DNA of 64,000 bases from Bacteroidota bacterium (GTDB taxonomy: Bacteria; Bacteroidota; Bacteroidia; Chitinophagales; LD1): NCBI GenBank assembly GCA_018267385.1, contig JAFDYN010000019.1, positions 1 to 64,000 on the forward strand, read 5' to 3'. Under the pieces are notes generated by a model. That model was given only the letters and a program-made list of their open reading frames with translations. It ran no database searches and had not been told where the DNA came from. Made by a program: the position numbers and the translations under genes. Each line of letters starts with the position of its first letter. Within the stretch, counting starts at the first letter, position 1. Below are positions 1-59,229 of the stretch, in pieces.

Positions 1-438
1 CATAGCCTGGAGCACATATACGCCTGGTGCGAGGCCGGAGAGGTCGGCGCCTGATGCCTCGTAGTCTCCGCTGTAGACCTGCTGGCCTACCATGTTAAAT
101 ACATAGATGTGTATATTGTCGTCCAGTGATGCTACATGCACCCGCGTAGAAAACGGGTTAGGATATACGGTAGCTGCCTCAGATGGGGCCTCTGTGATAC
201 CCGTAGTTTCTTCCGTATTGACTATAGAGCGGCTGGCCACCAGAAATCCCTGTGATACACCGGCGTCTCTGGTCTCTACCATACCTACTACCGGTTCACC
301 TACAGATATCAGCATCTGTATGCTGCCCGGAGTACCTATGGTACCCCCTGCGGAGTTTAAGACCATCCGGCCGGTAGACTGCGCAAAGGAGGCTGCAGCC
401 AGCATGGATGATAAGATCAAAAGGTAGGTTTTTTTCAT
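1..438 (-). CDS. T9SS type A sorting-domain protein, 3' end outside window
   Basis: The minus strand is open from an ATG at 438 to the window edge (146 codons), so the stop lies beyond base 1. The product begins MKKTYLLILSSMLAAASFAQ, a typical Sec signal peptide ending in the SFAQ cleavage site common in Bacteroidota. The middle contains the GxPGSIQMLISVGEP-like segment of short surface proteins, and from about residue 95 a YPNPF motif opens a type IX secretion C-terminal sorting domain, running into NMVGQQVYSGDYEA and LAPGVYVLQ. The domain is nearly complete at the edge, so the whole protein is probably only slightly longer, about 150-155 residues. It is expected to be exported by Sec and then attached or released at the cell surface by the T9SS. 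No catalytic domain is visible; its specific role is unknown. Confidence 0.8.
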   Translation of the reverse strand, partial: MKKTYLLILSSMLAAASFAQSTGRMVLNSAGGTIGTPGSIQMLISVGEPVVGMVETRDAGVSQGFLVASRSIVNTEETTGITEAPSEAATVYPNPFSTRVHVASLDDNIHIYVFNMVGQQVYSGDYEASGADLSGLAPGVYVLQAM

Positions 439-630
439 TGTTTATGTTTTTCTTACTCACGTTTACGCGGAGCTGTTTCATTTTGTTTCAGATAAAAGGA
501 AAAACCTGTTAAAAAATAGTTTTTCTCCTACTAGTTCATTGATTGAAAATCATTGATTTGAGAAAGAGAAGCAGGGCTTGAGAGATATTATATTAATATT
601 GCAGGATAACCAATCTCCCGGCTCCCTCCC

Positions 631-1947
631 TTGAATAAACTCTTTACGCTAATGGTATGGGTCTCGCTGTGCCATTCCGCTATAGCGCAGATCACGGCTA
701 CTGACACCATCCGGCAGCAGCGATGGAATATCCACTTTCAATCTACGGTCATAGGCCAGTGGCATCCGGCTTTTGCTGATCCATATAGCGGGCAGAATAG
801 CCTCCGCTCTCATGAAGGGGCCAAGGTCTCTATCACTACTACTCTATTTGCCGGAGTGAGGCTGTGGAAGGGGGCAGAGTTTTATTTCAACCCTGAGATA
901 TCGGGCGGTGAAGGACTGAGCCAGGCGCTCGGAGTGGCCGGAGCGCTGAATGGAGAAACATTTCGTGTAGGATCTGCTACCCCCAAGGTCTATGTAGCGC
1001 GCCTCTTCCTGCGCCAGTATATAGCACTCAGCAAAGAATATGAGTGGGTAGACAATGACTTTAACCAGCTACATGTGAAGCGGCCTGTGTCTTACCTCTC
1101 CTTTCTGGTGGGCAGGATCAATATAGCCGACTACTTTGACAATAATAGTGTAGCGCATGATGCGCGGCGGCAGTTTCTCAACTGGTCACTGATGGGTGCC
1201 GGTGCCTGGGACTATCCGGCCAATACGCGTGGCTACACCTATGGGTTTGTGGCAGAGTGGAAACACAAACAGTGGGGGCTGAGGTATTCTTTTGCCACGC
1301 TGCCCAAATCTGCCAATGCATCTAATATGAACTATGATCCGCGTCTGGCGCTGGCTCACGTACTGGAGGCAGAGGGCGGCTGGAAACTAAAGAATGGGCT
1401 GACAGGTACGGTGCGACTGCTCGGTTTCCTCAATGTGGCCAATATGGGTAGCTATCAGCTCGCTACCCTGATGGATACACCTGATATCACCGCTACGCGG
1501 AAATACTCTCGCAGCAAGGCTGGTTTTGGTATCAATGCCGAGCAGCAGGTCACACCGGAGGCTACGGTCTTTGCCCGCTATAGCTGGAATGACGGGCAGA
1601 ATGAGACGTGGGTCTTCACCGAGATAGATAATTCATTCAGCGCGGGTGCCATGACCAGCGGCAGATACTGGAAACGCCCGCTGGATAATATCGGCCTGTC
1701 TGTCGTGACCAACGGTATTTCAAAAGCACACCGCGACTATTTAGCCAAAGGCGGTTATGGCTTTATCATAGGTGATGGCAGGTTAAACTACGCGCAGGAA
1801 TTTATCACTGAGTTATATTACTCCTTTGCCGTGTATAAGGATTATATCTTTATCACGCCGGACTACCAGTTTGTACTGAATCCCGGCTATAACAAAGACC
1901 GTGGCCCTGTCAATGCCTTTGCCGTGAGGCTACATGCGGAGTTTTGA
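631..1947 (+). CDS. OprB-like carbohydrate porin
   Basis: A 438-residue outer-membrane protein. It begins at TTG 631 (MNKLFTLMVWVSLCHSAIAQ, a plausible signal peptide); the next in-frame ATG at 652 would leave a poor signal sequence, so TTG is preferred. The mature part alternates short strands rich in Tyr, Trp and Phe, ends in a C-terminal aromatic residue (HAEF), and carries the pattern GRINIADYFDNNSVAHDARRQ followed by NWSLMGAGAWDYPANTRGY that is seen in OprB-family carbohydrate-selective porins annotated in Bacteroidota. Such porins form a beta-barrel for diffusion of small solutes; the substrate cannot be read from the sequence. The gene is single, convergent with the propeller protein on its right, and shares a bidirectional terminator with it. 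Confidence 0.7.
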   Translation: MNKLFTLMVWVSLCHSAIAQITATDTIRQQRWNIHFQSTVIGQWHPAFADPYSGQNSLRSHEGAKVSITTTLFAGVRLWKGAEFYFNPEISGGEGLSQALGVAGALNGETFRVGSATPKVYVARLFLRQYIALSKEYEWVDNDFNQLHVKRPVSYLSFLVGRINIADYFDNNSVAHDARRQFLNWSLMGAGAWDYPANTRGYTYGFVAEWKHKQWGLRYSFATLPKSANASNMNYDPRLALAHVLEAEGGWKLKNGLTGTVRLLGFLNVANMGSYQLATLMDTPDITATRKYSRSKAGFGINAEQQVTPEATVFARYSWNDGQNETWVFTEIDNSFSAGAMTSGRYWKRPLDNIGLSVVTNGISKAHRDYLAKGGYGFIIGDGRLNYAQEFITELYYSFAVYKDYIFITPDYQFVLNPGYNKDRGPVNAFAVRLHAEF

Positions 1948-1950
1948 TTT

Positions 1951-1980
1951 TTATTAACCGCAAAAGCGCGGAAACGCAAG
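1951..1980. repeat. Short copy of GCGCAAAGACGC-type intergenic repeat
   Basis: Just after the porin stop lies TTAACCGCAAAAGCGCGG followed by AAACGCAAG. This is the same sequence family as the larger decayed stretches at 58.9-59.2 kb and 60.03-60.12 kb (there GCGTCTTTGCGCCTTCGCG, read on the other strand). These fragments are widespread non-coding repeats; on one strand they translate to phrases like RKGAKTQR, which explains spurious small proteins in databases. Confidence 0.5.
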
Positions 1981-2027
1981 AAATATAAATGACCGCCAGG
2001 GAGAAGATATGATCTATCTAAGAGCAA

Positions 2028-2068
2028 AAGCAGAAAGCCCCATCTGATAGAGATGGGGCTTTCTGCTT
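2028..2068. terminator. Bidirectional rho-independent-type terminator
   Basis: Perfect 18-bp stem: arms 2028-2045 and 2051-2068 (AAGCAGAAAGCCCCATCT and its complement) with a 5-base loop. It lies between the convergent porin (stop 1947) and propeller protein (stop 2095) genes and can serve both; the AAG/CTT ends give short A/T tracts rather than long T runs. Confidence 0.75.
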
Positions 2069-2094
2069 GGGATTGGTTTTTAGGTGGACGGGTC

Positions 2095-3516
2095 TTATTC
2101 TTTCACGAGTTTCAGGGTTTGAGTAGCGCCGGTGGCGGTAGTTACTTTTACCAGATAGATACCAGCGGCAAAGCTGCCTGTGTGGATCTGGGTAGCTGCC
2201 TGATCATTCAGCTCAGCAGTGGCTACCTGCTGGCCTGTTACGTCTGTCACGCTGATGGTGGCAGTGATACTCTGGTCAAAGCGCACGTTGAAAAGGTTGC
2301 TCATCGGATTCGGATACACTGTCATGGTGTGGCCGTCCAGCTCGCTGATGGCATTATTGCTACCCTGGCCATCATATTTCGCTACGAAGCGGCTGCCGCT
2401 TGTATTTTGATTGCCGCCGGCCACATACCACAGGTTGTGAGCGTATATCATTGTATTGATGCCTGCATTATCCTGCGCCAGATTGTCATAGTGGCCGAAG
2501 TTTGACCATGAGCTGCCATTCCATTTTTCTACTACGCTATGTGCGGTATTAGCATCTATCAGCTCGCCTGCAGCGTATACATTGCCGGAGCCGTCTACTA
2601 CTACGCTCTTGACCGGATTGTCCAGTACGCCGGCGCCAAAAGAGGCGGTGCCACCGAGCTCGCTCCATGTACTGCCATCATAGTGGGCTACATAGTATTT
2701 GCCGCCTGCATCGCGAAACGTACCTGCTACATAAACATTGGAGCCACTGACAGCGATCGTATTGCCATAATCTCCAAAAGGAATATTGAGTGCGCCGGAC
2801 CCTGCGCCCACCTCTGACCATGAGCTGCCGTTAAACCTGGCCAGGTATGGATGGCCCGTACTGATGGTCCCATTAGTAAAGTTACCTGTCGCGTAGACAT
2901 TGCCCGAGGCATCGACAGTCATAGCTGTGATAGCATTATTGGCATTGAGGGCATTGGATGCGCCTCCCACCGTGGTCCATGCGGTGCCGTCCCACTTCAT
3001 TACCTGATAGTAGATATTAGAGCCAGAGAGGAAGGCGATCTCACCCGCCGCATAAATATTGCCCTGCGCATCTGATGCGATGCTGCTGATACTCTGTACC
3101 AGCGTAGCGCCAAAACCGGAACTACCTCCGAGCTCAGTCCAGGCAGAGCCGTTCCATTTGGCTACATAGGCCATGCCTCCGGCGTCGGTAAAGTGCCCCC
3201 CTGCATAGATATTGCCCGAAGGATCGCTGCAGATGCTAGAGATGTCGCCATTGGCACTGAGTGCACTGCTGCCCGTGCCTAGTTCTGCCCAGGTCGTGCC
3301 ATTCCATTTGGCTACATACTGATTAGAGCCGGCATCCAGAAACTGGCCAGCGGCGTAGATATTGCCGGAGGGATCAGCACACAGCGTATTGATGTCATAA
3401 GAGCCTGCGGCGATGGTATCGTTACCGGTGCCGAGCTGTGTCCACTGCGCCTGCGCACCCGCGCCGATCAGCATGGCCGCACCGATGAGGATGGAGGGTA
3501 AAGTTTTGAATTTCAT
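2095..3516 (-). CDS. Seven-bladed propeller protein with T9SS type A sorting domain
   Basis: A 473-residue secreted protein; ATG 3516 is chosen because it starts MKFKTLPSILIGAAMLIGAG, a clear signal peptide, while the open frame upstream is not signal-like. The body consists of seven repeats of about 50 residues, each with WNGxxWxELG..., a variable loop, then DPSGNIYAAGxF...YVAKW. Seven such units are what a closed seven-bladed beta-propeller needs. The last ~75 residues hold YPNPMSNLFNVRF, VTDVTGQQVATAEL and AAGIYLVKV...LKLVKE, a type A T9SS sorting domain. It therefore is predicted to be displayed or released at the cell surface. Function is unknown; propellers of this sort often mediate binding to proteins or glycans. 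Single gene, sharing a terminator with the porin. Confidence 0.8.
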   Translation of the reverse strand: MKFKTLPSILIGAAMLIGAGAQAQWTQLGTGNDTIAAGSYDINTLCADPSGNIYAAGQFLDAGSNQYVAKWNGTTWAELGTGSSALSANGDISSICSDPSGNIYAGGHFTDAGGMAYVAKWNGSAWTELGGSSGFGATLVQSISSIASDAQGNIYAAGEIAFLSGSNIYYQVMKWDGTAWTTVGGASNALNANNAITAMTVDASGNVYATGNFTNGTISTGHPYLARFNGSSWSEVGAGSGALNIPFGDYGNTIAVSGSNVYVAGTFRDAGGKYYVAHYDGSTWSELGGTASFGAGVLDNPVKSVVVDGSGNVYAAGELIDANTAHSVVEKWNGSSWSNFGHYDNLAQDNAGINTMIYAHNLWYVAGGNQNTSGSRFVAKYDGQGSNNAISELDGHTMTVYPNPMSNLFNVRFDQSITATISVTDVTGQQVATAELNDQAATQIHTGSFAAGIYLVKVTTATGATQTLKLVKE

Positions 3517-3627
3517 GTCTTTTGTGTTTAAGTGATAAATGTTTTTGCGACACAGCAAAGGAACGCAGTATCACGCTGGAGGGGAAGGACAGATAAGGCG
3601 GTTACTTACCGGCCATGAGCGGCGGAT

Positions 3628-3667
3628 TTTGTTTGTTCGTTACCCCTAGGCGCAGCGAACAAACAAA
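3628..3667. repeat. Perfect hairpin repeat, copy A
   Basis: Arms 3628-3639 (TTTGTTTGTTCG) and 3656-3667 are a perfect 12-bp inverted repeat around a 16-base loop holding CCTAGG. It is the variant of copies B and C in which GTTC units have become GTTT. It is one of three such hairpins clustered around the RAYT gene. Confidence 0.75.
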
Positions 3668-3692
3668 CAAATGCAGGGCGGCTGTATGTGAC

Positions 3693-3742
3693 AGTCAATA
3701 GGGCGATGCCCTATCCTGAAGGCGGGTCGCCCCTTTGGGGCT
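3693..3742. repeat. RAYT-associated palindromic half-unit
   Basis: AGTCAATAGGGCGATGCCCT followed by ATCCTGAAGGCGGGTCGCCC and CTTTGGGGCT. It contains the small palindromes TAGGGCGATGCCCTA and AGCCCCAAAGGGGC (in reverse). Near-identical copies occur at 4272-4321, 4391-4440 and 5206-5254. Confidence 0.8.
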
Positions 3743-3758
3743 GCTCCATGGGGCGATC

Positions 3759-3806
3759 TTTGTTCGTTCGTTCGTTACCCCTAGTGTGAGCGAACGAACG
3801 AACAAA
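3759..3806. repeat. Perfect hairpin repeat, copy B
   Basis: Arms 3759-3774 (TTTGTTCGTTCGTTCG) and 3791-3806 form a perfect 16-bp inverted repeat with a 16-base loop TTACCCCTAGTGTGAG. Same orientation as copy A. The arm is made of tandem GTTC units, so arm length probably varies by slippage with both arms kept complementary. Confidence 0.8.
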
Positions 3807-3830
3807 AATGGAGAGATGTATCGGGGGGCA

Positions 3831-4109
3831 TTATCTCTTATTCTCTATTACTACTACTTTATTCTGGTACTTAGAGATCATTTTGCGCAGGGCCTTCTGG
3901 ATCTCGGCCGGGGTATGGTGTGGGTAGCGGCGGTACACCTTGTGCAGGGCGGCATTGAGGTCCAGCACAAAGGCGGCAGTGGCGCTGTCAGCTTTAGCGC
4001 TTACGTTCTTGTCAGTAAACAGACTATCATATGGTACTATGATCTGGTGTGCCCTCATGATGGTCTCCAGTATCGGCTCAAACTCTTTTTCTATCTCTTC
4101 CAATGTCAT
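3831..4109 (-). CDS. Hypothetical 92-residue protein
   Basis: Reads MTLEEIEKEFEPILETIMRA and onward to KYQNKVVVIENKR. It is charged, mostly helical, with no signal peptide or membrane segment. The open frame extends upstream to 4277, but that extension is hydrophobic, lower in complexity and looks non-coding, so ATG 4109 is chosen. It sits between palindromic repeats and the RAYT gene, all on the minus strand. I do not recognise the family. The predicted helices around residues 5-20 and 65-85 with a central YDSLFTDKNVSAKADSATAA stretch give no functional clue. Could be a genuine small cytoplasmic protein; coding status is moderately supported by composition only. Confidence 0.45.
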   Translation of the reverse strand: MTLEEIEKEFEPILETIMRAHQIIVPYDSLFTDKNVSAKADSATAAFVLDLNAALHKVYRRYPHHTPAEIQKALRKMISKYQNKVVVIENKR

Positions 4110-4271
4110 GTCGGGGTTTTGCGCATAGTTAAAAACATTGGGTACACTTATAGGAGGCACAAAAAACAACAAGGAGGAAACTTTGGTAAAAACAACAATT
4201 TTATATGTGTTTATTTCAATAAATGTGCGCTGAAGGAGGGTGAAGAATAATCTGTTAAAATAGGGTGGGAT

Positions 4272-4321
4272 AGTCAATAAGGCGATGCCCTATCCTGAGG
4301 CGGGTCGCCCCTTTGGGGCTT
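4272..4321. repeat. RAYT-associated palindromic half-unit
   Basis: Second copy of the half-unit (AGTCAATAAGGCGATGCCCT ... CCCCTTTGGGGCT), directly followed ten bases later by a full unit at 4331-4440. Confidence 0.8.
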
Positions 4322-4330
4322 CTTGCATTC

Positions 4331-4440
4331 AGCCCCAAAGGGGCAGTTCGCCTTTGTAGCGTGGGGCATCGCCCTACGTGTTTGGGGCTTAGTCAATAGG
4401 GCGGTGCCCTATCCTGGAGGCGGGTCGCCCCTTTGGGGCT
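4331..4440. repeat. Full RAYT-associated palindromic unit
   Basis: Begins AGCCCCAAAGGGGCAGTTCG, continues GTAGCGTGGGGCATCGCCCT and ACGTG, then joins the inverted half AGTCAATAGGGCGGTGCCCT ... CGCCCCTTTGGGGCT. The two halves are roughly complementary (AGCCCC...GGGGCT ends; GGGGCATCGCCC versus GGGCGGTGCCC), so the unit is a paired palindrome like a BIME. It ends 21 bases before the stop codon of the transposase. Confidence 0.8.
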
Positions 4441-4461
4441 TGTCTGGATGGCGGCAGGTGT

Positions 4462-4914
4462 TTATTCCCAAAAGTATTTTTCGTCATAATCAACGTCATA
4501 CTTTTTGAGGAGTTTGCGGCATTCTGTCTGGTAGGATTGTACCGCATGATGTTTCTCCTGGTCGCGGATGTAATCTGCCACCTTTTGTACCTCGGTGTAT
4601 CCTACAGAGAAAGCAGCGTAGCCATCCTGCCAGTAGAAGGCTGCATAGTCGTCTCCCTTTGATTTGATCCAACGGCTGGAGTACTTTTTAATATCCTCCA
4701 GCAGCTTCATCACGGTGATCTTGCGGGACAGGATACAAAGGATGTGTACATGATCTGTATAGCCGCCTATCTCCACCGGCTGGCAGTCTCGTTCGCGGCA
4801 CAGGGCGCCTATGTAGCTGTGCAGGTCATCTTTGATCGTATCATCTATCGTGGCCTCCCGGTGTTTTGTGCTGAATACGATGTGCAGGTAGATTCTCGTC
4901 AATGATTGTGGCAT
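4462..4914 (-). CDS. REP-associated tyrosine transposase (IS200/Y1 family)
   Basis: A 150-residue single-domain Y1 transposase: N-terminal LTRIYLHIVFSTKHRE strand, the HUH metal-binding motif at H55-V-H57 within GGYTDHVHILCIL, and the catalytic tyrosine at Y115 in VQKVADYIRDQEKHH, the sequence typical of REP-associated transposases (RAYTs) and of IS200/IS605 TnpA. Length matches the family. Both catalytic motifs are intact, so it may be active as a single-strand endonuclease and ligase. Palindromic units flank it on both sides (4331-4440 and 4962-5047), with more copies within 1 kb. In RAYT systems the enzyme nicks its REP hairpins and may spread them; that this enzyme acts on these repeats is inference from position. 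No tnpB partner is present. Confidence 0.88.
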   Translation of the reverse strand: MPQSLTRIYLHIVFSTKHREATIDDTIKDDLHSYIGALCRERDCQPVEIGGYTDHVHILCILSRKITVMKLLEDIKKYSSRWIKSKGDDYAAFYWQDGYAAFSVGYTEVQKVADYIRDQEKHHAVQSYQTECRKLLKKYDVDYDEKYFWE

Positions 4915-4961
4915 TCTCTAAGATATGGAAATATCAAATCGGATACATGGTGAATGCATTT

Positions 4962-5047
4962 AGCCCCAACGGGGCGTTACGACTATAGCGTGGGGCATCG
5001 CCCTACGTGTATTTTTTCTGGGGGGATAGTCAATAGGGGCGGTGCGG
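4962..5047. repeat. RAYT-associated palindromic unit, second half truncated
   Basis: Begins AGCCCCAACGGGGCGTTACG, continues GCGTGGGGCATCGCCCTACG and TGTATTTTTTC, and enters AGTCAATAGGGGCGGTGC before losing similarity. So the second half is cut after about 18 bases, unlike the full copies. It starts 48 bases upstream of the transposase start codon. Confidence 0.75.
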
Positions 5048-5060
5048 ATCAGGCTTGTAT

Positions 5061-5108
5061 TTTGTTCGTTCGTTCGCTGCGCCTAGGGGCAACGAACGAA
5101 CGAACAAA
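5061..5108. repeat. Perfect hairpin repeat, copy C
   Basis: Arms 5061-5076 and 5093-5108, perfect 16-bp inverted repeat of TTTGTTCGTTCGTTCG. The loop CTGCGCCTAGGGGCAA is the reverse complement type of the loop in copy A, so copy C is inserted in the opposite orientation. It sits exactly at the truncated end of the 4962-5047 unit. Confidence 0.8.
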
Positions 5109-5138
5109 AAATCCGGACGTAGGTGATCCGGATACTTT

Positions 5139-5254
5139 AGCCCCAACCGGGCGTTACGACTTATAGCGTGGGGCATCGCCCTACGTGTATTTTTTCGGGG
5201 GGTGAGTCAATAGGGCGATGCCCTATCCTAATGGCGGGTCGCCCCTTTGGGGCT
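5139..5254. repeat. Full RAYT-associated palindromic unit
   Basis: Complete paired unit of about 116 bases: AGCCCCAACCGGGCGTTACG, GTGGGGCATCGCCCTACGTG, a T-run, then AGTCAATAGGGCGATGCCCT and CGCCCCTTTGGGGCT. It abuts the stop codon of the outer-membrane protein gene at 5271. Confidence 0.8.
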
Positions 5255-5270
5255 TAGCTGCAAATAGATA

Positions 5271-6083
5271 TTACTTCAATCTGGCCTTGAAATTGAGCCC
5301 CACGTGTAGCTCTGCATAGGGCCTGAAGGCGCTACCTGTCAGGGTCTCTAAGTGAAATGGGGTACCCTCGGCCCAGACGATAAGCTGCAGGTGCTGTCTG
5401 AGTGGCTGCCTGATGCCGACGCCAAAGGAAGAAACATTGGCGCCCAGCCCTATCTGCTGAAACGTCCCCGCCTTGTAGTACCGGTAGGATACACCCCCGC
5501 CATACTTCCACCCGCGTCCCTGATAGGATACAAACTCGGGAGCCAGGGTCCACTGAAAGAATGACTGAAAGCGATGGCCAAACGTCCAGCGCAGTCCTAC
5601 GGGCAGGGCAAGCTTTATCATTGAGCCATTATTGATGTGTAGCTCCTCATACCCCAGATCGTATATCTGCCTGCCCGATACCTGCCCTACAGCGACATGC
5701 GCACCCAGCAGCAGCGAGAAAACGCGGCCATACGGCACGAGCTCTGCGGCGATATGAAAGCCACCTCCCTGTATCGGGGCCTCGTGCTGACGGATATCGT
5801 AGGCCAGGTAGGAGGCCGTCGCCTCTACACGCAGCTGCCCTCTGTAGATGTGCGAGGTGTACCAGTGCGATGCGGGTATGAGCGTGGTATAGGCTATGAG
5901 GCTATCCGCTATGCGGTAGGTGATCCTATCCTCCGCGCGGAAGTCATGCCATTTGCCCTCATTGGTATTGACTGTTTTGCCCTGCAGGCGGGTACTGTCG
6001 CGCAGGACCATCAGCTCCTCCCGCCTCTGAGCAGAGAGCAGTGTGCTGCATAAGATCATGGATAGTAAAATGCCGGTCCTCAC
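5271..6083 (-). CDS. Hypothetical outer-membrane beta-barrel protein
   Basis: 270 residues, starting MRTGILLSMILCSTLLSAQ, a signal peptide. From about residue 95 the sequence alternates hydrophobic and polar residues in strand-length stretches (GGGFHIAAELVPYGRVFSLL, GVSYRYYKAGTFQQIGLGAN, HLQLIVWAEGTPFHLE) and ends AYAELHVGLNFKARLK, as in small outer-membrane beta-barrels. The N-terminal 75 residues include a segment REELMVLRDSTRLQGKTV that may be periplasmic. No known family is recognised. Single gene; palindromic repeats lie immediately downstream of its stop and could act in termination or mRNA stability. Confidence 0.6.
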   Translation of the reverse strand: MRTGILLSMILCSTLLSAQRREELMVLRDSTRLQGKTVNTNEGKWHDFRAEDRITYRIADSLIAYTTLIPASHWYTSHIYRGQLRVEATASYLAYDIRQHEAPIQGGGFHIAAELVPYGRVFSLLLGAHVAVGQVSGRQIYDLGYEELHINNGSMIKLALPVGLRWTFGHRFQSFFQWTLAPEFVSYQGRGWKYGGGVSYRYYKAGTFQQIGLGANVSSFGVGIRQPLRQHLQLIVWAEGTPFHLETLTGSAFRPYAELHVGLNFKARLK

Positions 6084-6213
6084 ATCCTTACTTTATGTCT
6101 CTAAGATAATAGGATGGGTAGCAATGGCCAACTTTATCTTGAAATAAAGGTGAGGGATGCTGTTGCGCTGGTTGCTGGTCAGGCGACCAGCAACGGCGGG
6201 AAGGGAGTAGCAT

Positions 6214-7464
6214 TTAATTAAAATGTCTCAATGTATTTTTTAAAGTACTCATCGCAATTTTTTCTGGATCAGGGAAAAGAAAATTTTTATCTACACCTAA
6301 TTTTTTCAGTCTTTTAAGAATATATGGTCGTAGTGATTTATTTATGTTTAAACAATTAGAAAAACTGTAATCTTCTTGCTCGTTTTCATCATATTGATTT
6401 CTGGCGATATGTTCGATAGGAAAATTTGCTGAACTGTTCCAAATGAAAACGCCTTGCTGATTCACGATGTTAAGGTTATTATTAAGATGAAAAGATATTA
6501 TACCATCATTTTTGATTTCTGAAAAATATAGGAGAGGAGAAGATATAATATTATCGACTTTAGTTAAGGTTGCCATTAGAGGCCGTCCATGAGTAAGTAA
6601 CGTGACATTTTCAACTACATCGTCTGTTATAGACGCATCGATTATAGCTTCGGCTACATTCGCCTTTTGCATCCTTTCTCGTAATATTTTTTCAACCTTG
6701 GGTTTTAAACGCTGCATCCCTTCTTTTGCAGCTTCGATTATTTCGTCACCAGCACGTAGGTGTTTTTCTTCGATATAATAGACTGAAAAGTAATTGTCAA
6801 TTTCTCTTTTAGGCAGAGTTTTCTGCAATTTATAGGCGCCAAAATATAATGCATTTGCAAAGCTATACGTCCAGTCTATTAATGGTGTCGGACATCCATA
6901 ATGTTGTAGAAAACTTAAAATGGAAAGGTCGTTTTCTGGATCAAATTTGACATTCGAAAAATATTTTTGGAGTATATGCCCTTGTTCATTTTTAGAATTG
7001 TCAATCATCTTCTTTATAAAGTCGAGATGGTTTATTTCTTGGTTATAGAGCTTTCTTTCAATCCAGAGTCGTTGCAAGGAGCTATATAACCTGTACTTCG
7101 CCTCATCCACGCCTCTGAATAGAGTCTCTGGTTTTTGATGTAATTCAGCAAATATTTTTTCGAAATCCTCTACTGTATCAATATTTGTTTGATTAAAGAA
7201 AATTTCCTTTTGAATAAATGCTTTATACTCCGACAAGAAGCTTTTATCAGTAGAGGGAGAATCCAGTAAAGTTCCGACATAAGAGTTGATAGCCGACCTA
7301 ACCAATGAATTTACAGTTTCATCAATCACTTTGCCCGTTTCATCACATTTCACCAGCAATAATCCTTCTAATAACTCTTTAAATTTTATTCTCTCGTACC
7401 CGCCATCTTCAAGATGCTCCTTGAAAAGCTTTACCTTAAAGTCTAAATCCCAATTGAATTCCAT
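6214..7464 (-). CDS. FRG-domain protein
   Basis: 416 residues, no signal peptide. The FRG domain is visible as its namesake F116-R-G118 (ETLFRGVDEAKYRLYSSLQR), and HYGCPTPLIDWTYSFANALY around residues 189-208, the conserved H-G-x-PTPLLDWT core of the family. The remainder is charged and helical with a C-terminal SLRPYILKRLKKLGVDK segment. FRG proteins are of unknown enzymatic activity; the family is spread among phages, integrative elements and toxin or defence loci. The gene is much AT-richer than its neighbours and is inserted between an outer-membrane protein and nrdJ. The nrdJ terminator lies just 19 bases upstream of its start codon, leaving almost no room for a separate promoter, so its expression route is unclear. 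Confidence 0.8.
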   Translation of the reverse strand: MEFNWDLDFKVKLFKEHLEDGGYERIKFKELLEGLLLVKCDETGKVIDETVNSLVRSAINSYVGTLLDSPSTDKSFLSEYKAFIQKEIFFNQTNIDTVEDFEKIFAELHQKPETLFRGVDEAKYRLYSSLQRLWIERKLYNQEINHLDFIKKMIDNSKNEQGHILQKYFSNVKFDPENDLSILSFLQHYGCPTPLIDWTYSFANALYFGAYKLQKTLPKREIDNYFSVYYIEEKHLRAGDEIIEAAKEGMQRLKPKVEKILRERMQKANVAEAIIDASITDDVVENVTLLTHGRPLMATLTKVDNIISSPLLYFSEIKNDGIISFHLNNNLNIVNQQGVFIWNSSANFPIEHIARNQYDENEQEDYSFSNCLNINKSLRPYILKRLKKLGVDKNFLFPDPEKIAMSTLKNTLRHFN

Positions 7465-7478
7465 TGTCCCGTTTTTAA

Positions 7479-7511
7479 GAAAAAAGCCCCATCTCTCACG
7501 AAATGGGGCTT
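7479..7511 (-). terminator. Terminator of nrdJ
   Basis: Arms 7484-7492 and 7503-7511 (AAGCCCCAT / ATGGGGCTT) with a 10-base loop; on the minus strand it is followed by a run of T (plus-strand A at 7481-7485). It lies 32 bases after the nrdJ stop codon and before the FRG gene. Confidence 0.8.
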
Positions 7512-7542
7512 CTGTTATTTGTATTGTCTAATGTCTCAGAGA

Positions 7543-10500
7543 CTATGAGCAGCCCATGCTGTTGCCGCAGTTGAGGCACTTGTAGCAGGTACCGGAGCGG
7601 AGGGTGATGTTGCCGCACACGTTGCACGGTGGGGCATCGCCGCCCATATCCTTGAGGTGGTTATTGAGATTGCTCAGGGCTGGCTGAGAGGCGAGCTTCA
7701 TCACCTTTACCTCTTGTGCCGGCTGTGCCTTAGGCTTCTCTATCATCTCAGGGTGTACAGGCCTTACGGTGTCTTCTTCTATATCTGTGGTGAGGTCCAG
7801 GGTGCTCACCTCGCGGCTGGCCAGCTCACTAGGAGTGACATGCACGAGGTCTGTGCGGCCCAGGTACTCAAACGCCAGGAGGCGGAAGATATAGTCTACG
7901 ATAGAGCTTGCATTCTTGATATTCGGGTGGTCTACCATACCACTCGGCTCAAAGCGGGTGAAGGTGAACTTATTGACAAACTCCTCCAGCGGCACGCCAT
8001 ACTGCAGGCCTATGGATACGGAGATAGCAAAGCAGTTCATCAGTGAGCGGAAGGATGCGCCCTCCTTGTGCATGTCGATGAAGATCTCACCGAGGGTGCT
8101 ATCGCTGTACTCGCCTGTGCGTACGAAGACGGTCTGTCCGCCCACCTTTGCCTTTTGGGTAAAACCATTGCGGCGGTGAGGCAGGGCCTTCTTCTCTACG
8201 ATGCGGGAGAGGGCACGCTTGAAGCTGGTGTCTGTAGACTCCTGCATCAGCACGCGGGCAGCCTCGAGCACCTGCTCAGGGGTCAGCTTGCTAAACATCT
8301 CTGTAGGAGCTGCCTCAGTAGCTGATGCTGTAGCGGCAGTGCTTGACTTCTCTTCTTTCTCCTCGTCCTTCTTGTTGGAGAGTGGCTGGGAGAGTTTGCA
8401 TCCGTCGCGGTAGAGGGCGTTAGCCTTCAGGCCGAGCTTCCAGGAGAGCTCGTATGACTGCTGGATATCTTCTACAGTAGCTTCATTTGGCAGGTTGATC
8501 GTCTTGGATATCGCACCGCTGATGAATGGCTGCACAGCGCCCATCATCTTGATGTGGCCGTGTGCATGGATGAAGCGGGTGCCCTTGGTACCGCACTTAT
8601 TGGCAGTGTCAAATACCGGCAGGTGCTCTTCCTTGAGATATGGTGCGCCCTCTACGGTCATGGCGCCGCAGATATATTCATTAGCTGCCTCGATATCCGC
8701 CTTGCTGAAGCCCAGCTCGCGGAGGAGGTTAAATTTGCCGCTATTGTACTGCTCTGCCGTGAAGCCAAGGCGCTGCAGGGTAGCCTCGCCGAGGCTGTAT
8801 ACGTTAAACGCGAAGGTCACGTCAAACGCAGCCGGCAGGCCAGCCTCTATCTTCTCGATATCTGTATTGTCAAAGCCCTTGGCGCGGAGCGAGTCAGGGT
8901 TGATAGCCGGGCATCCGTACAGGCTGCCGTGGCCCTTGGCATATTTCACGATAGCATCTACCTCAGATGGTGCGTAGCCGAGGTTCTTTAGCGCGTATGG
9001 CACTGACTCGTTCACGATCTTGAAGTAGCCACCACCAGAGAGCTTCTTAAACTTCACCAGCGCGAAGTCTGGCTCTACACCTGTAGTATCGCAGTCCATG
9101 ACCAGGCCGATAGTACCGGTAGGTGCTATCACCGTGGTCTGGGCATTGCGGTAGCCATACTTTTCGCCGAGCTGGAGTGCCTCGTCCCACGCATTGCACG
9201 CGGCTGTGAGCAGATAGTCAGGGCACTGGCGCTGGTCTATGCCTACCGGCTTCACGTCCAGTCCTTCGTAGGTCTCAGGGCTGGCATTGTATGCTGCATA
9301 GCGGTGATTCCTCATCACGCGCATCATGTGTTTCTTATTGCGCTCGTAGCCGGCAAATGGTCCGAGTACAGAGGCCATCTCTGCCGATGTCTTGTACGAT
9401 GTACCGGTCATGATAGCCGTGATAGCACCGCCTATCGCGCGGGCCTTGTCACTGTCATAGGCTATGCCTGATACCATCAGCAGGGTGCCGAGGTTGGCAA
9501 AACCGAGACCGAGTGTGCGGAACTCATATGACAGCTGGGCCACCTCCTTGGACGGGAACTGTGCCATCAGTACGGAGATCTCCAGTACCATAGTCCAGAT
9601 GCGGCTCATGTGCTCGAAGCCCTTGACATCCAGTGTCAGGGTATCTACATCATAGAACTTCATCAGGTTAAAGGAAGCCAGGTTGCAGGCTGTATTATCC
9701 AGGAACATATACTCCGAACATGGGTTAGACGCGCGGATAGGGCCATCCTCTGGGCAGGTGTGCCACTCATTGATCGTCGTGTCAAACTGTACACCCGGAT
9801 CAGCGCAGCGCCATGCAGCCATACCTACCTTGTCCCACAGTTCGCGGGCAGGGATCGTGCGCATGGTGCGGCCATCGGTGCGGGCCTTGAGCGCCCAGTT
9901 GCCACCCTCTTCCAGCGTCTTGAAGAAAGAGTTTGGTACGCGTACAGAGTTATTGGAGTTCTGGCCGGCTACCGTGCGGTATGCCTCGCCTTCGTAGTGA
10001 TTGCTATAGCCTGCATCGATGAGGGCCTTTACCTTGTCCTCTTCTTTCATCTTCCACTCTATGAAGTCTACCACCTCCGGGTGATCCAGGTCGAGGCAGA
10101 CCATCTTGGCCGCACGGCGGGTAGTACCGCCGGACTTGATAGCACCGGCTGCGCTGTCACCTATCTTGAGGAAGCTCATGAGGCCTGATGAGGTACCGCC
10201 ACCGGAGAGTTTCTCACCCTCGCCGCGGATGCCGGAGAAGTTTGTACCTACGCCTGAGCCATATTTGAAGATACGGGCCTCACGTGTCCAGAGGTCCATG
10301 ATACCGCCTTCATTCACCAGGTCATCTGTCACAGACAGGATGAAGCAGGCGTGTGGCTGCGGACGCTCGTATGCTGAGGTAGATTCTGACAGTTTGCCGG
10401 TATCAGGGTCTACATAGTAGTGGCCCTGTGGCTTGCCGGCTATACCATATGCAGTATAGAGGCCGGTATTAAACCATTGAGGGGAGTTTGGCGCTGCCAT

Positions 10501-10905
10501 CTGGCCCAGCAGGGAGTATACCAGCTCATCATAGAATACAGATGCATCCTTAGATGAAGCGAAGTAACCATACTTCTCACCCCACTGCCTCCAGCAGTCT
10601 GCGAGGCGGTGTGCCACTTGTTTAATAGAACGCTCGCCACCCAGGCTGCCATCTGCCTGAGGTACGCCGGCGCGGCGGAAGTACTTTTGTGCTAATATAT
10701 CTGTAGCTACCTGGCTCCACTGGGCCGGCACCTCTACATTATGCATTTCAAATACTGCGTCACCGGCAGGATTTCTGATCACCGAGCTGCGCAGCTCATA
10801 TTGGAAGAGGTCGTATGCTGATACACCATCTTTAGTGTAATATCTGTCGACGGCTAGTCCTTTCTGGCCGGTGGATTGGCCTTTTGCTGTTGTTTTCTTT
10901 GCCAT
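7543..10905 (-). CDS. nrdJ: Adenosylcobalamin-dependent (class II) ribonucleotide reductase
   Basis: A 1120-residue class II ribonucleotide reductase that reduces ribonucleotides to deoxyribonucleotides using coenzyme B12. Visible landmarks: N-terminal HACFILSV cysteine (about residue 188), the glycine-rich loop [57 protein letters not shown] holding the active-site cysteine, [20 protein letters not shown] with the GTI loop, and a C-terminal cysteine-rich tail [20 protein letters not shown] typical of the long NrdJ form. Full length. Oxygen-independent radical generation lets the cell make dNTPs at any oxygen tension, at the cost of needing cobalamin. Upstream are two DnaA-box-like sites (11080-11102) and no recognisable cobalamin riboswitch. 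Single gene with its own terminator. Confidence 0.96.
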
Positions 10906-11254
10906 AATCTTTAAGGGTATATTTAGAGTCTATTATTGTATTGTTAAGTGGTAGATATCTGCTGTTTGGTATCCCGAATTTATTCCTGTCAGGAAAATAA
11001 AGCCAGTGCTTTTATCAACAAACTTTGTGCAAAGGGTAGCCGATAAATATCAAATCATGGACAGTCCTTGATTTCAGCCTGTGGAAAAGACAAAGTGGAT
11101 AAAATGGGGAAAAAATAAGTTGGTTTTCTTGGGTTTATGCGGACCCCTTGACAGGCCTGCATAAACGTTAAATCCCGATATTTTTCTGCACCTTTACGGT
11201 TACAAAGATACTGCTTATTTCTGAGAGAGGTGCCTGCCAGTCAGTGTACTCCAT
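10906..11254. other. Divergent intergenic region between nrdJ and pcrB-like gene
   Basis: 349 bases without a gene. It must hold both divergent promoters. Seen: TATCTTTG on the minus strand at 11203-11210 (a TAnnTTTG match, but lacking a clear -33 element), DnaA-box-like sites at 11080-11088 and 11094-11102, and an AT-rich stretch after them (GGGGAAAAAATAAG). I looked for a B12 riboswitch box and an NrdR palindrome and found neither. Confidence 0.4.
11080..11102. promoter_or_regulatory. Two DnaA-box-like sites upstream of nrdJ
   Basis: TGTGGAAAA (11080-11088) and AGTGGATAA (11094-11102), each one mismatch from the DnaA box TGTGGATAA and spaced 14 bases start to start in the same orientation. 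The second is identical to a site in front of dnaA (50593-50601). DnaA control of ribonucleotide reductase genes is known from E. coli nrdAB; here it is inference. Confidence 0.4.
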
Positions 11255-12001
11255 ATGATAGAAAACCGAAACATGACCGAAACCGTCTACTCACAGCTCA
11301 GTACCACCCGCAGCCAGCTGGCAGTGCTCATAGACCCTGACAATCAGACCCGGGATAGCCTCCGCGACATGACCGACCGGATCAACTCAGCGCGGGTAGA
11401 TATGGTACTGGTGGGCGGCAGCCTGCTGCTGGAGGACCGCTTCGAAGAAACGATCCGGCTACTGAAGAAAGAGACATCCGTACCGGTGGTCATCTTCCCT
11501 GGCAATAACTACCAGGTGAGCCGCTCGGCAGACGCCCTCCTGCTGCTCAGTCTGATCTCCGGCCGCAACCCGGAATATCTGATAGGTCAGCATGTGGTGG
11601 CCGCGCCGCATATCCGCGAGTCCGGCCTGGAGGTGATACCGACCGGGTACATGCTTATAGATGGCGGCAGGGTATCTACCACCTCCTATATGACCCAGAC
11701 CGTGCCGATACCTCATGACAAGGCCGATATAGCCGTAGCTACCGCCATGGCCGGCGAGCTGCTGGGCCTGCGTGCTATCTATCTGGAGGCCGGCAGTGGG
11801 GCCAGGCAAAGCATCCCTACGGAGATGCTGACGGCCGTCAGAAAGGCCATCTCCATACCCATCATCACGGGTGGGGGGATACGTACTCCTGAGCAGGCCG
11901 AGGCGCTGGCACAGGCAGGCTCCAATCTGATAGTGGTCGGTAACGTACTGGAGAAGCAGCCCGAGCTGCTGCTAGAGATATCACTGGCGGTGCATGGGTA
12001 G
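11255..12001 (+). CDS. Geranylgeranylglyceryl phosphate synthase family protein (PcrB-like)
   Basis: 248 residues with a TIM-barrel prenyltransferase pattern: LAVLIDPDNQ near the N-terminus, VDMVLVGGSLL, VPVVIFPGNNYQVSRSADALL, LEVIPTGYMLIDGG, YLEAGSGARQSIPTEML, PIITGGGIRTPEQAEAL and NLIVVGNVLE. These are the phosphate- and prenyl-binding segments of the GGGP synthase/PcrB family, which joins a polyprenyl diphosphate to glycerol-1-phosphate. Bacteroidota members are known and their lipid product is less settled than in archaea. ATG 11255 or ATG 11273 (MTETVY) could be the start; both precede the first conserved segment. It diverges from nrdJ and is followed at 27 bases by a small secreted protein gene. 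Confidence 0.85.
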   Translation: MIENRNMTETVYSQLSTTRSQLAVLIDPDNQTRDSLRDMTDRINSARVDMVLVGGSLLLEDRFEETIRLLKKETSVPVVIFPGNNYQVSRSADALLLLSLISGRNPEYLIGQHVVAAPHIRESGLEVIPTGYMLIDGGRVSTTSYMTQTVPIPHDKADIAVATAMAGELLGLRAIYLEAGSGARQSIPTEMLTAVRKAISIPIITGGGIRTPEQAEALAQAGSNLIVVGNVLEKQPELLLEISLAVHG

Positions 12002-36878: not shown

Positions 36879-37018
36879 GACAAGGGGGTTTAATACCCTC
36901 ACGTACGAGAAATCATTTTATATGTTACGCTTTGCGTAAAAACCTGGCTGTTAATTATAATGAACGGCAGGGGGCAGATCGCGCACCTGCTGCTATCTCT
37001 TGGCCTTTTCTTGTATCA

Positions 37019-37066
37019 AGCCCTGAAAGGGCGGTACACCTTCGGTACAGGGCAACGCCCTGTGTG
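37019..37066. repeat. Palindromic intergenic element related in layout to the RAYT repeats
   Basis: AGCCCTGAAAGGGCGGTACA, CCTTCGGTACAGGGCAACGC, CCTGTGTG. Its layout (AGCCC..GGGCG, short spacer, then AGGGCAACGCCCTGTG) copies that of the half-unit AGCCCCAACGGGGCG ... GTGGGGCATCGCCCTACGTG near 5 kb, though the bases differ. It is probably another family of the same repeat type. Confidence 0.55.
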
Positions 37067-37080
37067 ATAGCAAACGAAGA

Positions 37081-54530: not shown

Positions 54531-54660
54531 GATGTATGGTTTATGTAATGCGAAGGTCGCGCTGCGGCGCGGCTCCGGAGGCGACCTGCGTCGTGTGCGG
54601 CTATGACTTTGGTCAGGTGGCCATGTGAAGAGGAACTAAGTAGCGCGCCGGTGGGGGCAG

Positions 54661-54702
54661 GTTCGTAGTCGCCAGCCGCAGGCCTGCCTTCGGACTACGA
54701 AC
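54661..54702. repeat. Palindromic repeat left of the HNH island
   Basis: GTTCGTAGTC (54661-54670) and GACTACGAAC (54693-54702) form a perfect 10-bp stem with loop GCCAGCCGCAGGCCTGCCTT plus CG. The same 42-base element in inverted orientation lies at 56252-56293. Confidence 0.75.
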
Positions 54703-54746
54703 AGCTTTATTTGATCTGAACTGCGGAGCGGGTACATATACGCACA

Positions 54747-56184: not shown

Positions 56185-56251
56185 TGGTACAAAATTTACA
56201 TTCAAAAATAGCACTAATCCTCTATACTTGTATGTAAATATTCACACGCTG

Positions 56252-56293
56252 GTCGTAGTCCGAAGGTAGGCCTGAGGGATAGCGACTACGAAC
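56252..56293. repeat. Palindromic repeat right of the HNH island
   Basis: TCGTAGTC (56253-56260) and GACTACGA (56284-56291). Reverse-complemented it reads GTTCGTAGTCGC, a variable 8-base centre, then AGGCCTACCTTCGGACTACG, matching the copy at 54661-54702 at most positions with one indel. The two copies face each other around the HNH gene and the 91-residue gene. Confidence 0.75.
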
Positions 56294-57963: not shown

Positions 57964-58183
57964 ACATAATCCTTTTGAGTGAGATAAAGGTTGAATTATG
58001 TATCATGGTGTAGTCTGTTTGAGTGAATGTAGCCATCCCCAAAAGCTCCTGAAGGGGATCTAAAAGCAAAGACATCCGGAGATATATTAATACAACGTGA
58101 GAGGTAGTTTTTTTAGTATGGCCGGGTGAGGGCATGGCCGGGGGATTACCCCCAACTGTCCGTAGCTAAAATAAAACAATGCT

Positions 58184-58224
58184 GTCCGTAGATGAAGGCA
58201 GGCCAGTGGCAGGCTTCTACGGAC
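58184..58224. repeat. Palindromic element GTCCGTAGA
   Basis: GTCCGTAGA (58184-58192) and TCTACGGAC (58216-58224), perfect 9-bp stem, with GGCAGGCCAGTGGCAGGC in the loop. A third GTCCGTAG stands at 58158-58165. Same style as the GTTCGTAGTC elements at 54.7 and 56.3 kb. Confidence 0.65.
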
Positions 58225-58909: not shown

Positions 58910-59229
58910 GCATTCCTTAGAGTTCTTGGTGCCCTTCGTGTGCAAACCCTTTTTGCGTTTTTGCGTTTTCGCGAGCCATCATGTATTCGGCTGCTCTCTT
59001 CGCGCTCCCACTGTCGCGCGATTGTATCGCGTGACTACTCTGCATAGCGTTTTCAACGCGTCATGTTTTTGCGAGCCATCCTGCATTCCGCTTCTCCTTC
59101 GCGCCTTTGCGTGAAAACATTGCATTCGGCTATTCCTTTACATTCCCTTAAACCCTTTGCGCCTTCGCGAGAAATCTATTCCGCATTCCTTAGAGTTCTT
59201 GTGCCCTCCGTGTGAAAACCCTTTCCGCG
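58910..59229. repeat. Decayed intergenic repeat block with internal duplication
   Basis: GCATTCCTTAGAGTTCTTGG with GTGCCCTTCGTGTGCAAACC CTTTTTGCG (58910-58957) recurs at 59183-59229 with a few changes. Between them are GCGTTTTCGCGAGCCATCAT and GTTTTTGCGAGCCATCCTGC, and GCGCCTTTGCGTGAAAACAT / GCGCCTTCGCGAGAAATC. All belong to the GCGCAAAGACGC family also at 1951-1980 and 60030-60122. The stretch 58731-59253 holds no believable gene. Confidence 0.6.

Follow-up and report, generated by a model that had tools for sequence, protein, structure and literature searches.

An enzyme gene embedded in short palindromic repeats raises the question of whether the repeats belong to that enzyme and, if so, what kind of enzyme it is. 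The stretch of Bacteroidota DNA analyzed here, 64,000 nucleotides long and referred to as the window, contains such a locus, a Y1 transposase gene with palindromes abutting it on both sides, and an earlier note had read it as a REP/BIME-RAYT system.

The transposase belongs to class 1

The transposase gene (4462–4914, minus strand) encodes a 150-aa protein with a full-length Y1_Tnp domain (Pfam PF01797, E=5e-26), the HUH motif DHVH at residues 54–57, WQ at residues 95–96, and catalytic Tyr115 within the sequence YIRDQEKHH, in agreement with the description of a complete Y1 transposase with its catalytic motifs in the earlier note. The protein also matches the NCBIfam IS200 model, which carries the name IS200/IS605 transposase, with 74 bits against a cutoff of 55. 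Its AlphaFold2 model (pLDDT 86.6) has the TnpA proteins of ISDra2 and IS608 as its closest PDB folds (Z ~15), and the E. coli TnpA_REP structure 4er8 is the next closest (Z 10.5).

In a published survey of Y1 transposases, subclass 1.2 is marked by the signatures DH[IV]H, WQ, and Y---Q--HH, a length of ~148 aa, and a low intragenomic copy number, while Y---NP is common to all class 2 members (PMC6006769, Quentin et al. 2018). All of the subclass 1.2 signatures, including the length, are present in the window protein, which has YIRDQEKHH where class 2 would have Y---NP. The gene occurs once in its own genome, with no near-identical second copy there, and as 0 to 6 diverged copies in relatives, a pattern that fits the low copy number of subclass 1.2 and not the multiple near-identical copies that are an IS property of subclass 1.1. 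By these sequence signatures we classify the protein as a TnpA_Y1 of subclass 1.2, that is, a class 1 IS200-like enzyme and not a classical class 2 RAYT, and the RAYT label in its class 2 sense has to be dropped. The same survey lists no REPs for subclass 1.2 and describes it as devoid of IS properties (PMC6006769).

Seven half-units surround the gene

The transposase gene is surrounded by 7 half-units of ~44 nt, scored here with R1, a covariance model built from 19 units of the own genome only. One full inverted pair (4331–4440) joins a type a unit with a TAGCG foot (4331–4376, plus strand, 65.6 bits) to a type b unit that adjoins the 3' end of the gene (4397–4440, minus strand, 69.5 bits), and the other (5139–5254) joins a type a unit (5139–5183, plus strand, 59.3 bits) to a type b unit (5211–5254, minus strand, 73.2 bits). 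A type a unit 48 nt upstream of the transposase start (4962–5005, plus strand, 70.8 bits) is part of a truncated pair that extends to ~5038, and two single type b halves lie on the minus strand at 4279–4320 (64.6 bits) and at 3699–3742, the latter with a GGATAGGGC foot and found both by R1 (68.1 bits) and by repeat search. This reproduces exactly the earlier count of two full paired units, one truncated unit, and two half-units. The repeat length of about 115 bases given at the same time is right for the inverted pair, while the basic unit is a 44-nt element with two hairpins. An eighth, solo unit (37009–37072, plus strand, 52.8 bits) is located in a gap between ORFs and overlaps none of 90 aa or longer.

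The core motifs of the unit are found 10 and 7 times in the window, which is above chance, as none of 100 dinucleotide shuffles reached either number. Rfam gave no match in positions 1–12000 of the window. In the interval 3628–5254 there is also an unrelated GTTC-rich palindrome, here called H, which occurs three times: at 3628–3671 with CTAG at its tip, at 3759–3808 (DNA MFE −17.9 kcal/mol, z −6.2), and at 5060–5110. These form a repeat family separate from the 44-nt unit.

The unit has two hairpins and a strand-polar foot

The 44-nt unit is bipartite, with a hairpin A, a linker of ~14–15 nt, and a hairpin B that usually has TAGC at its 5' foot. Hairpin A has the form AGCCCC-NNA-GGGGCG with the core GCCCC-NNN-GGGGC, and hairpin B has the form GCGTAGGGC-ATC-GCCCTACG with the core CGTAGGGC-ATC-GCCCTACG. 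As single-stranded DNA, the unit at 4962–5005 folds into two hairpins (DNA MFE −12.2 kcal/mol), and the unit at 5211–5254 likewise gives two (DNA MFE −11.2 kcal/mol). Among 66 R1 matches near subclass 1.2 genes, double compensatory changes were found at all 13 base pairs, and the covariation score was 0.511 versus 0.150 when shuffled and no more than 0.125 with slid pairings, on a structure-fitted alignment that favors the structure.

TAGC stands at the 5' foot of the second hairpin 40 times on the gene-ward strand versus 5 times on the other strand, and distal hairpins have a TAGC foot in 4 of 138 cases. Among the 4-mers at the gene-ward 5' foot it ranks first (40/117 hairpins), and the GT[AG]G of class 2 is not found in its place, with both GTAG and GTGG absent from the 15 commonest 4-mers at that position. 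The foot is a majority feature, the third position being G in 51 of the 66 model matches and A in 13. Near more distant subclass 1.2 genes (28–43% identity) there are other palindromes, with TAGC or TAAC present at 10 of 36 loci. The tag is therefore typical of the clade around the window gene, and the idea that TAGC marks the whole subclass is rejected for its distant members. Some distant subclass 1.2 genes (at L114, L089, L090, L107, L105, and L303) have long single palindromes, for example ATAGCCCACGGTTTAAACCGTGGGCTAT, which carry TAGC at one foot or at both and are similar to the class 2.4 REPs called 'double foot'.

Units are dispersed through the genome

R1 found at least ~29 copies of the unit in the 4.55-Mb genome, 7 of them at the gene, among 150 of 863 candidates, which were the ones scored. 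Away from the locus, 17 of 20 dispersed copies overlap no ORF of at least 90 aa, and some form BIME-like arrays of alternating orientation, as at C21:95046/95120 (−,+) and at C27:148683/148757/148829 (+,−,+; array C27:148683–148893). The family thus has two of the properties by which REPs and BIMEs are recognized, namely dispersed, multicopy, intergenic palindromes and pairs in alternating orientation, and the earlier reading, under which copies were to be expected elsewhere in the genome, is upheld on this point.

Four class 2 Y1 genes are found elsewhere in the same genome, and this would be consistent with a different owner of the unit, a class 2 RAYT that is still present or has been lost, with the subclass 1.2 gene having merely landed in its cluster. 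However, three of these four genes have their own, different adjoining repeats, and the fourth has none. Four or more enzyme-repeat families are therefore present in this genome. Within the window, solo copies of class 2 RAYT repeats were noticed at 54659–54705, 56248–56277, 58172–58204, and 59009–59059, and these match the repeats flanking the RAYTs at C26:290176, C24:87503, and C21:73630.

Units accompany the gene across genomes and phyla

Within the family, six homologues at 51–72% identity all have units close by, and within the order units adjoin the gene at all 17 of the close homologue loci that were examined. We compared 148 genomes of the order, with an orthologue defined by a full-length identity of about 46% or higher. 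Units were present in 16/16 genomes with an orthologue versus 18/132 without (Fisher p=2e-12), and four or more copies in 14/16 versus 7/132 (p=9e-13), with unit counts that are lower bounds from 35 candidates scored per genome. As the earlier reading required, units are overall not equally common where the gene is missing, with the exception of the sister genome G021, which has 24 units and no subclass 1.2 gene. Units also occur in several other genomes in which no close orthologue passed this threshold (24–25 in G050 and G088; 6–14 in G122, G148, and G146), which counts in favor of ownership by a class 2 enzyme. G023 was considered as a further gene-less genome and rejected, its assembly being broken inside the repeat cluster.

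For a wider comparison, 80 subclass 1.2 loci (~38–65% identical) were taken from a profile scan of GTDB genomes and chosen by protein similarity; their labels are Bacteroidota, Ignavibacteria, Planctomycetota, Verrucomicrobiota, Acidobacteriota, and others, some of which may be wrong where they come from MAG bins. Counted without any model, two-hairpin palindromes occur at 2.27/kb within 250 nt of the gene versus 0.05/kb beyond 2 kb, a difference of ~45-fold, and at least one is present at 51/80 loci. R1 itself recovers units beside these cross-phylum genes, and its matches near the gene have converging orientation in 38 of 49 cases and another orientation in 11. Flanks are more alike within a locus than between loci (median score 27.5 versus 10), and the cross-phylum model R2 has no match at 20 class 2 Y1 loci spanning 57 kb.

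With units at all 17 close loci and at 51 of the 80 cross-phylum loci, subclass 1.2, described as REP-less, does have REP-like units. The lack of REPs is something reported for the subclass and does not belong to the sequence features that define it. We found no report of REPs for this subclass in the open-licence literature. Ownership of the units by class 2 RAYTs is largely refuted by their presence at every close orthologue of the subclass 1.2 gene and in many phyla, together with the 0 of 20 result for R2 at class 2 loci, and we consider it highly improbable.

Alternatively, the palindromes could serve to regulate the transposase gene, as hairpins that act as terminators or in translation control, and recombine passively without being enzyme substrates. 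Their position against the gene on both sides is what this would predict, and mRNA hairpins have a known role in controlling IS200 transposases (PMC3733652). It does not account for units at many unrelated intergenic sites or for the genome-wide co-occurrence of units and gene, nor for a two-hairpin build and a strand-polar TAGC foot that are kept on both flanks, and we give it very little weight.

The gene is probably an old resident and the units appear to move little

The transposase gene is a single-copy, vertically kept locus. Beside it lies a small ORF (3831–4109, minus strand, ~92 aa from an internal ATG) that has no Pfam match. In G024 the transposase orthologue adjoins the same small ORF, there with 84% amino acid identity. 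The syntenic site in G021, with 81% and 95% identity on its two sides, retains the small ORF (97% amino acid identity), units, and H palindromes, and the transposase gene is missing. Since the G024 orthologue has this small ORF as its neighbor, an ancestral locus is probable, and G021 probably represents loss of the gene with inherited repeats. The orthologue pair G001–G010 shows strong purifying selection (dN 0.05, dS 0.71), an estimate from one pair because dS is saturated for most within-genus pairs.

In the place of the gene, G021 has a toxin-antitoxin-like pair with a ParE/RelE-type look, named by inspection (L126, G021:C7 ~409.7–411 kb) and bounded by the same palindromes as the window locus. 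The small ORF is more conserved than its neighbor in G021.

At least 7 dispersed unit sites are common to the own genome (G000) and G021, and most G023 unit sites are common to G000 and/or G021. Because most sites are common to sister genomes, present mobility of the units looks low. At one shared site the number of tandem units is 2 versus 3 (C24:372437 in G000; C12:571108 in G021). In the tkt operon of G000, an inverted unit pair lies between tktN and tktC, and the matching contig of G023 also has a unit pair, while in G025 and G026 the pair is missing and tktN and tktC abut. Neither target-site duplications nor recent transposition events were observed. The empty tkt sites, at ~77% identity, are too diverged for exact insertion points and target-site duplications to be placed. 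In G024 (L146, G024:C21), the tktN/tktC junction that carries the unit pair in G000 is occupied by an unrelated insert of ~0.5 kb containing a small ORF, and the junction therefore seems prone to insertions.

These data bear on whether the locus could be an ordinary IS200/IS605 element with end hairpins, whose remnants or MITE-like non-autonomous copies would be the dispersed units. The NCBIfam name, the closeness of the fold to IS608 and ISDra2 TnpA, and the hairpins on both sides of the gene are all compatible with such an element. The end hairpins of IS200/IS605 elements lie on one strand, however, whereas the units flanking the gene are usually inverted (38/49). There is one gene copy per genome with no near-identical second copy, unit pairs and solos are found far from any gene copy, and syntenic retention in G024 and purifying selection in G001–G010 speak for a resident gene. 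We consider an ordinary IS element unlikely, though less so than the two alternatives above.

A proposed REP-type system built on an IS200-like transposase

Our preferred reading, with a probability of about 0.8, is that of a REP-type system built on a class 1 IS200-like transposase of subclass 1.2 instead of a class 2 RAYT. The earlier proposal of a REP/BIME-RAYT system is retained insofar as a REP/BIME-like family is centered on the Y1 gene and dispersed, and is corrected as to the enzyme. The data establish the class of the gene, the repeat and its dispersal, the co-occurrence of the two across species, the covarying structure, and the TAGC foot with its strand polarity. The 44-nt bipartite unit is probably the substrate of the transposase, and the TAGC foot probably plays the part of guide that the GTAG foot has for E. 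coli TnpA_REP (PMC6006769). By analogy with that enzyme, we infer recognition, cleavage, and past mobility along the following lines. The transposase would bind hairpin B with its TAGC foot in single-stranded (lagging-strand) DNA, the foot would pair with the cleavage site, and cleavage would proceed through Tyr115. Units could then be joined or copied into other intergenic sites and would pair up in inverted orientation, like BIMEs or REPINs.

The system resembles the E. coli REPtron (TnpA_REP/RAYT, subclass 2.2, structure 4er8) in its HUH/Y1 fold (Z 10.5), its single-copy gene, the inverted-pair units on both flanks, the dispersed intergenic palindromes, and a tetranucleotide at the hairpin 5' foot. 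It differs in having Y---Q--HH rather than Y---NP, TAGC rather than GTAG, and two hairpins per unit, and its copies are far fewer than those in classical REP genomes. The subclass 1.2 of PMC6006769 agrees with it in all protein signatures, a length of ~150 aa, low copy number, and occurrence in Bacteroidota, but was published as having no REPs, whereas REP-like units accompany all close homologues examined here and flank the gene in many phyla. IS200/IS605 TnpA (IS608, ISDra2; subclass 1.1) is closest in fold (Z ~15) and class and also has subterminal hairpins, yet the system described here has no near-identical copies, has inverted units, and has no detected IS behavior. CGTC-tagged REPs, which have been reported from Bacteroidetes as well and have no known transposase (PMC3733652), are likewise small palindromes bearing a terminal tag other than GTAG, but their tag is CGTC rather than TAGC and their architecture is different.

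A Y1 subclass described as REP-less thereby gains a likely DNA substrate. This gives a second, separately derived enzyme-repeat pairing that can be compared with E. coli TnpA_REP and GTAG, so that the open question of how REPs spread becomes testable with a different guide tetranucleotide. It also points to where many palindromic repeats of Bacteroidota, and of other phyla, may come from. In its broadest form, to which we give even odds, REP systems would have arisen a second time, from the IS200 branch, with subclass 1.2 driving TAGC-tagged two-hairpin repeats across Bacteroidota, Ignavibacteria, Planctomycetota, Verrucomicrobiota, and Acidobacteriota, and many unexplained palindromes there would be its products.

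The H palindromes

The H palindromes are 47–50 nt long and GTTC-rich, with three at the window locus and more at the G021 syntenic site. They were considered as intrinsic terminators and rejected, because in both orientations the 3' side of the stem ends in an A tract. Four or five related palindromes were noticed in G000:C24 at ~118–122 kb (L174 4701, 6066, 6698, 7528, 8297), where they are spaced 0.6–1.6 kb apart between small unrelated genes, like the separators of a gene-cassette array.
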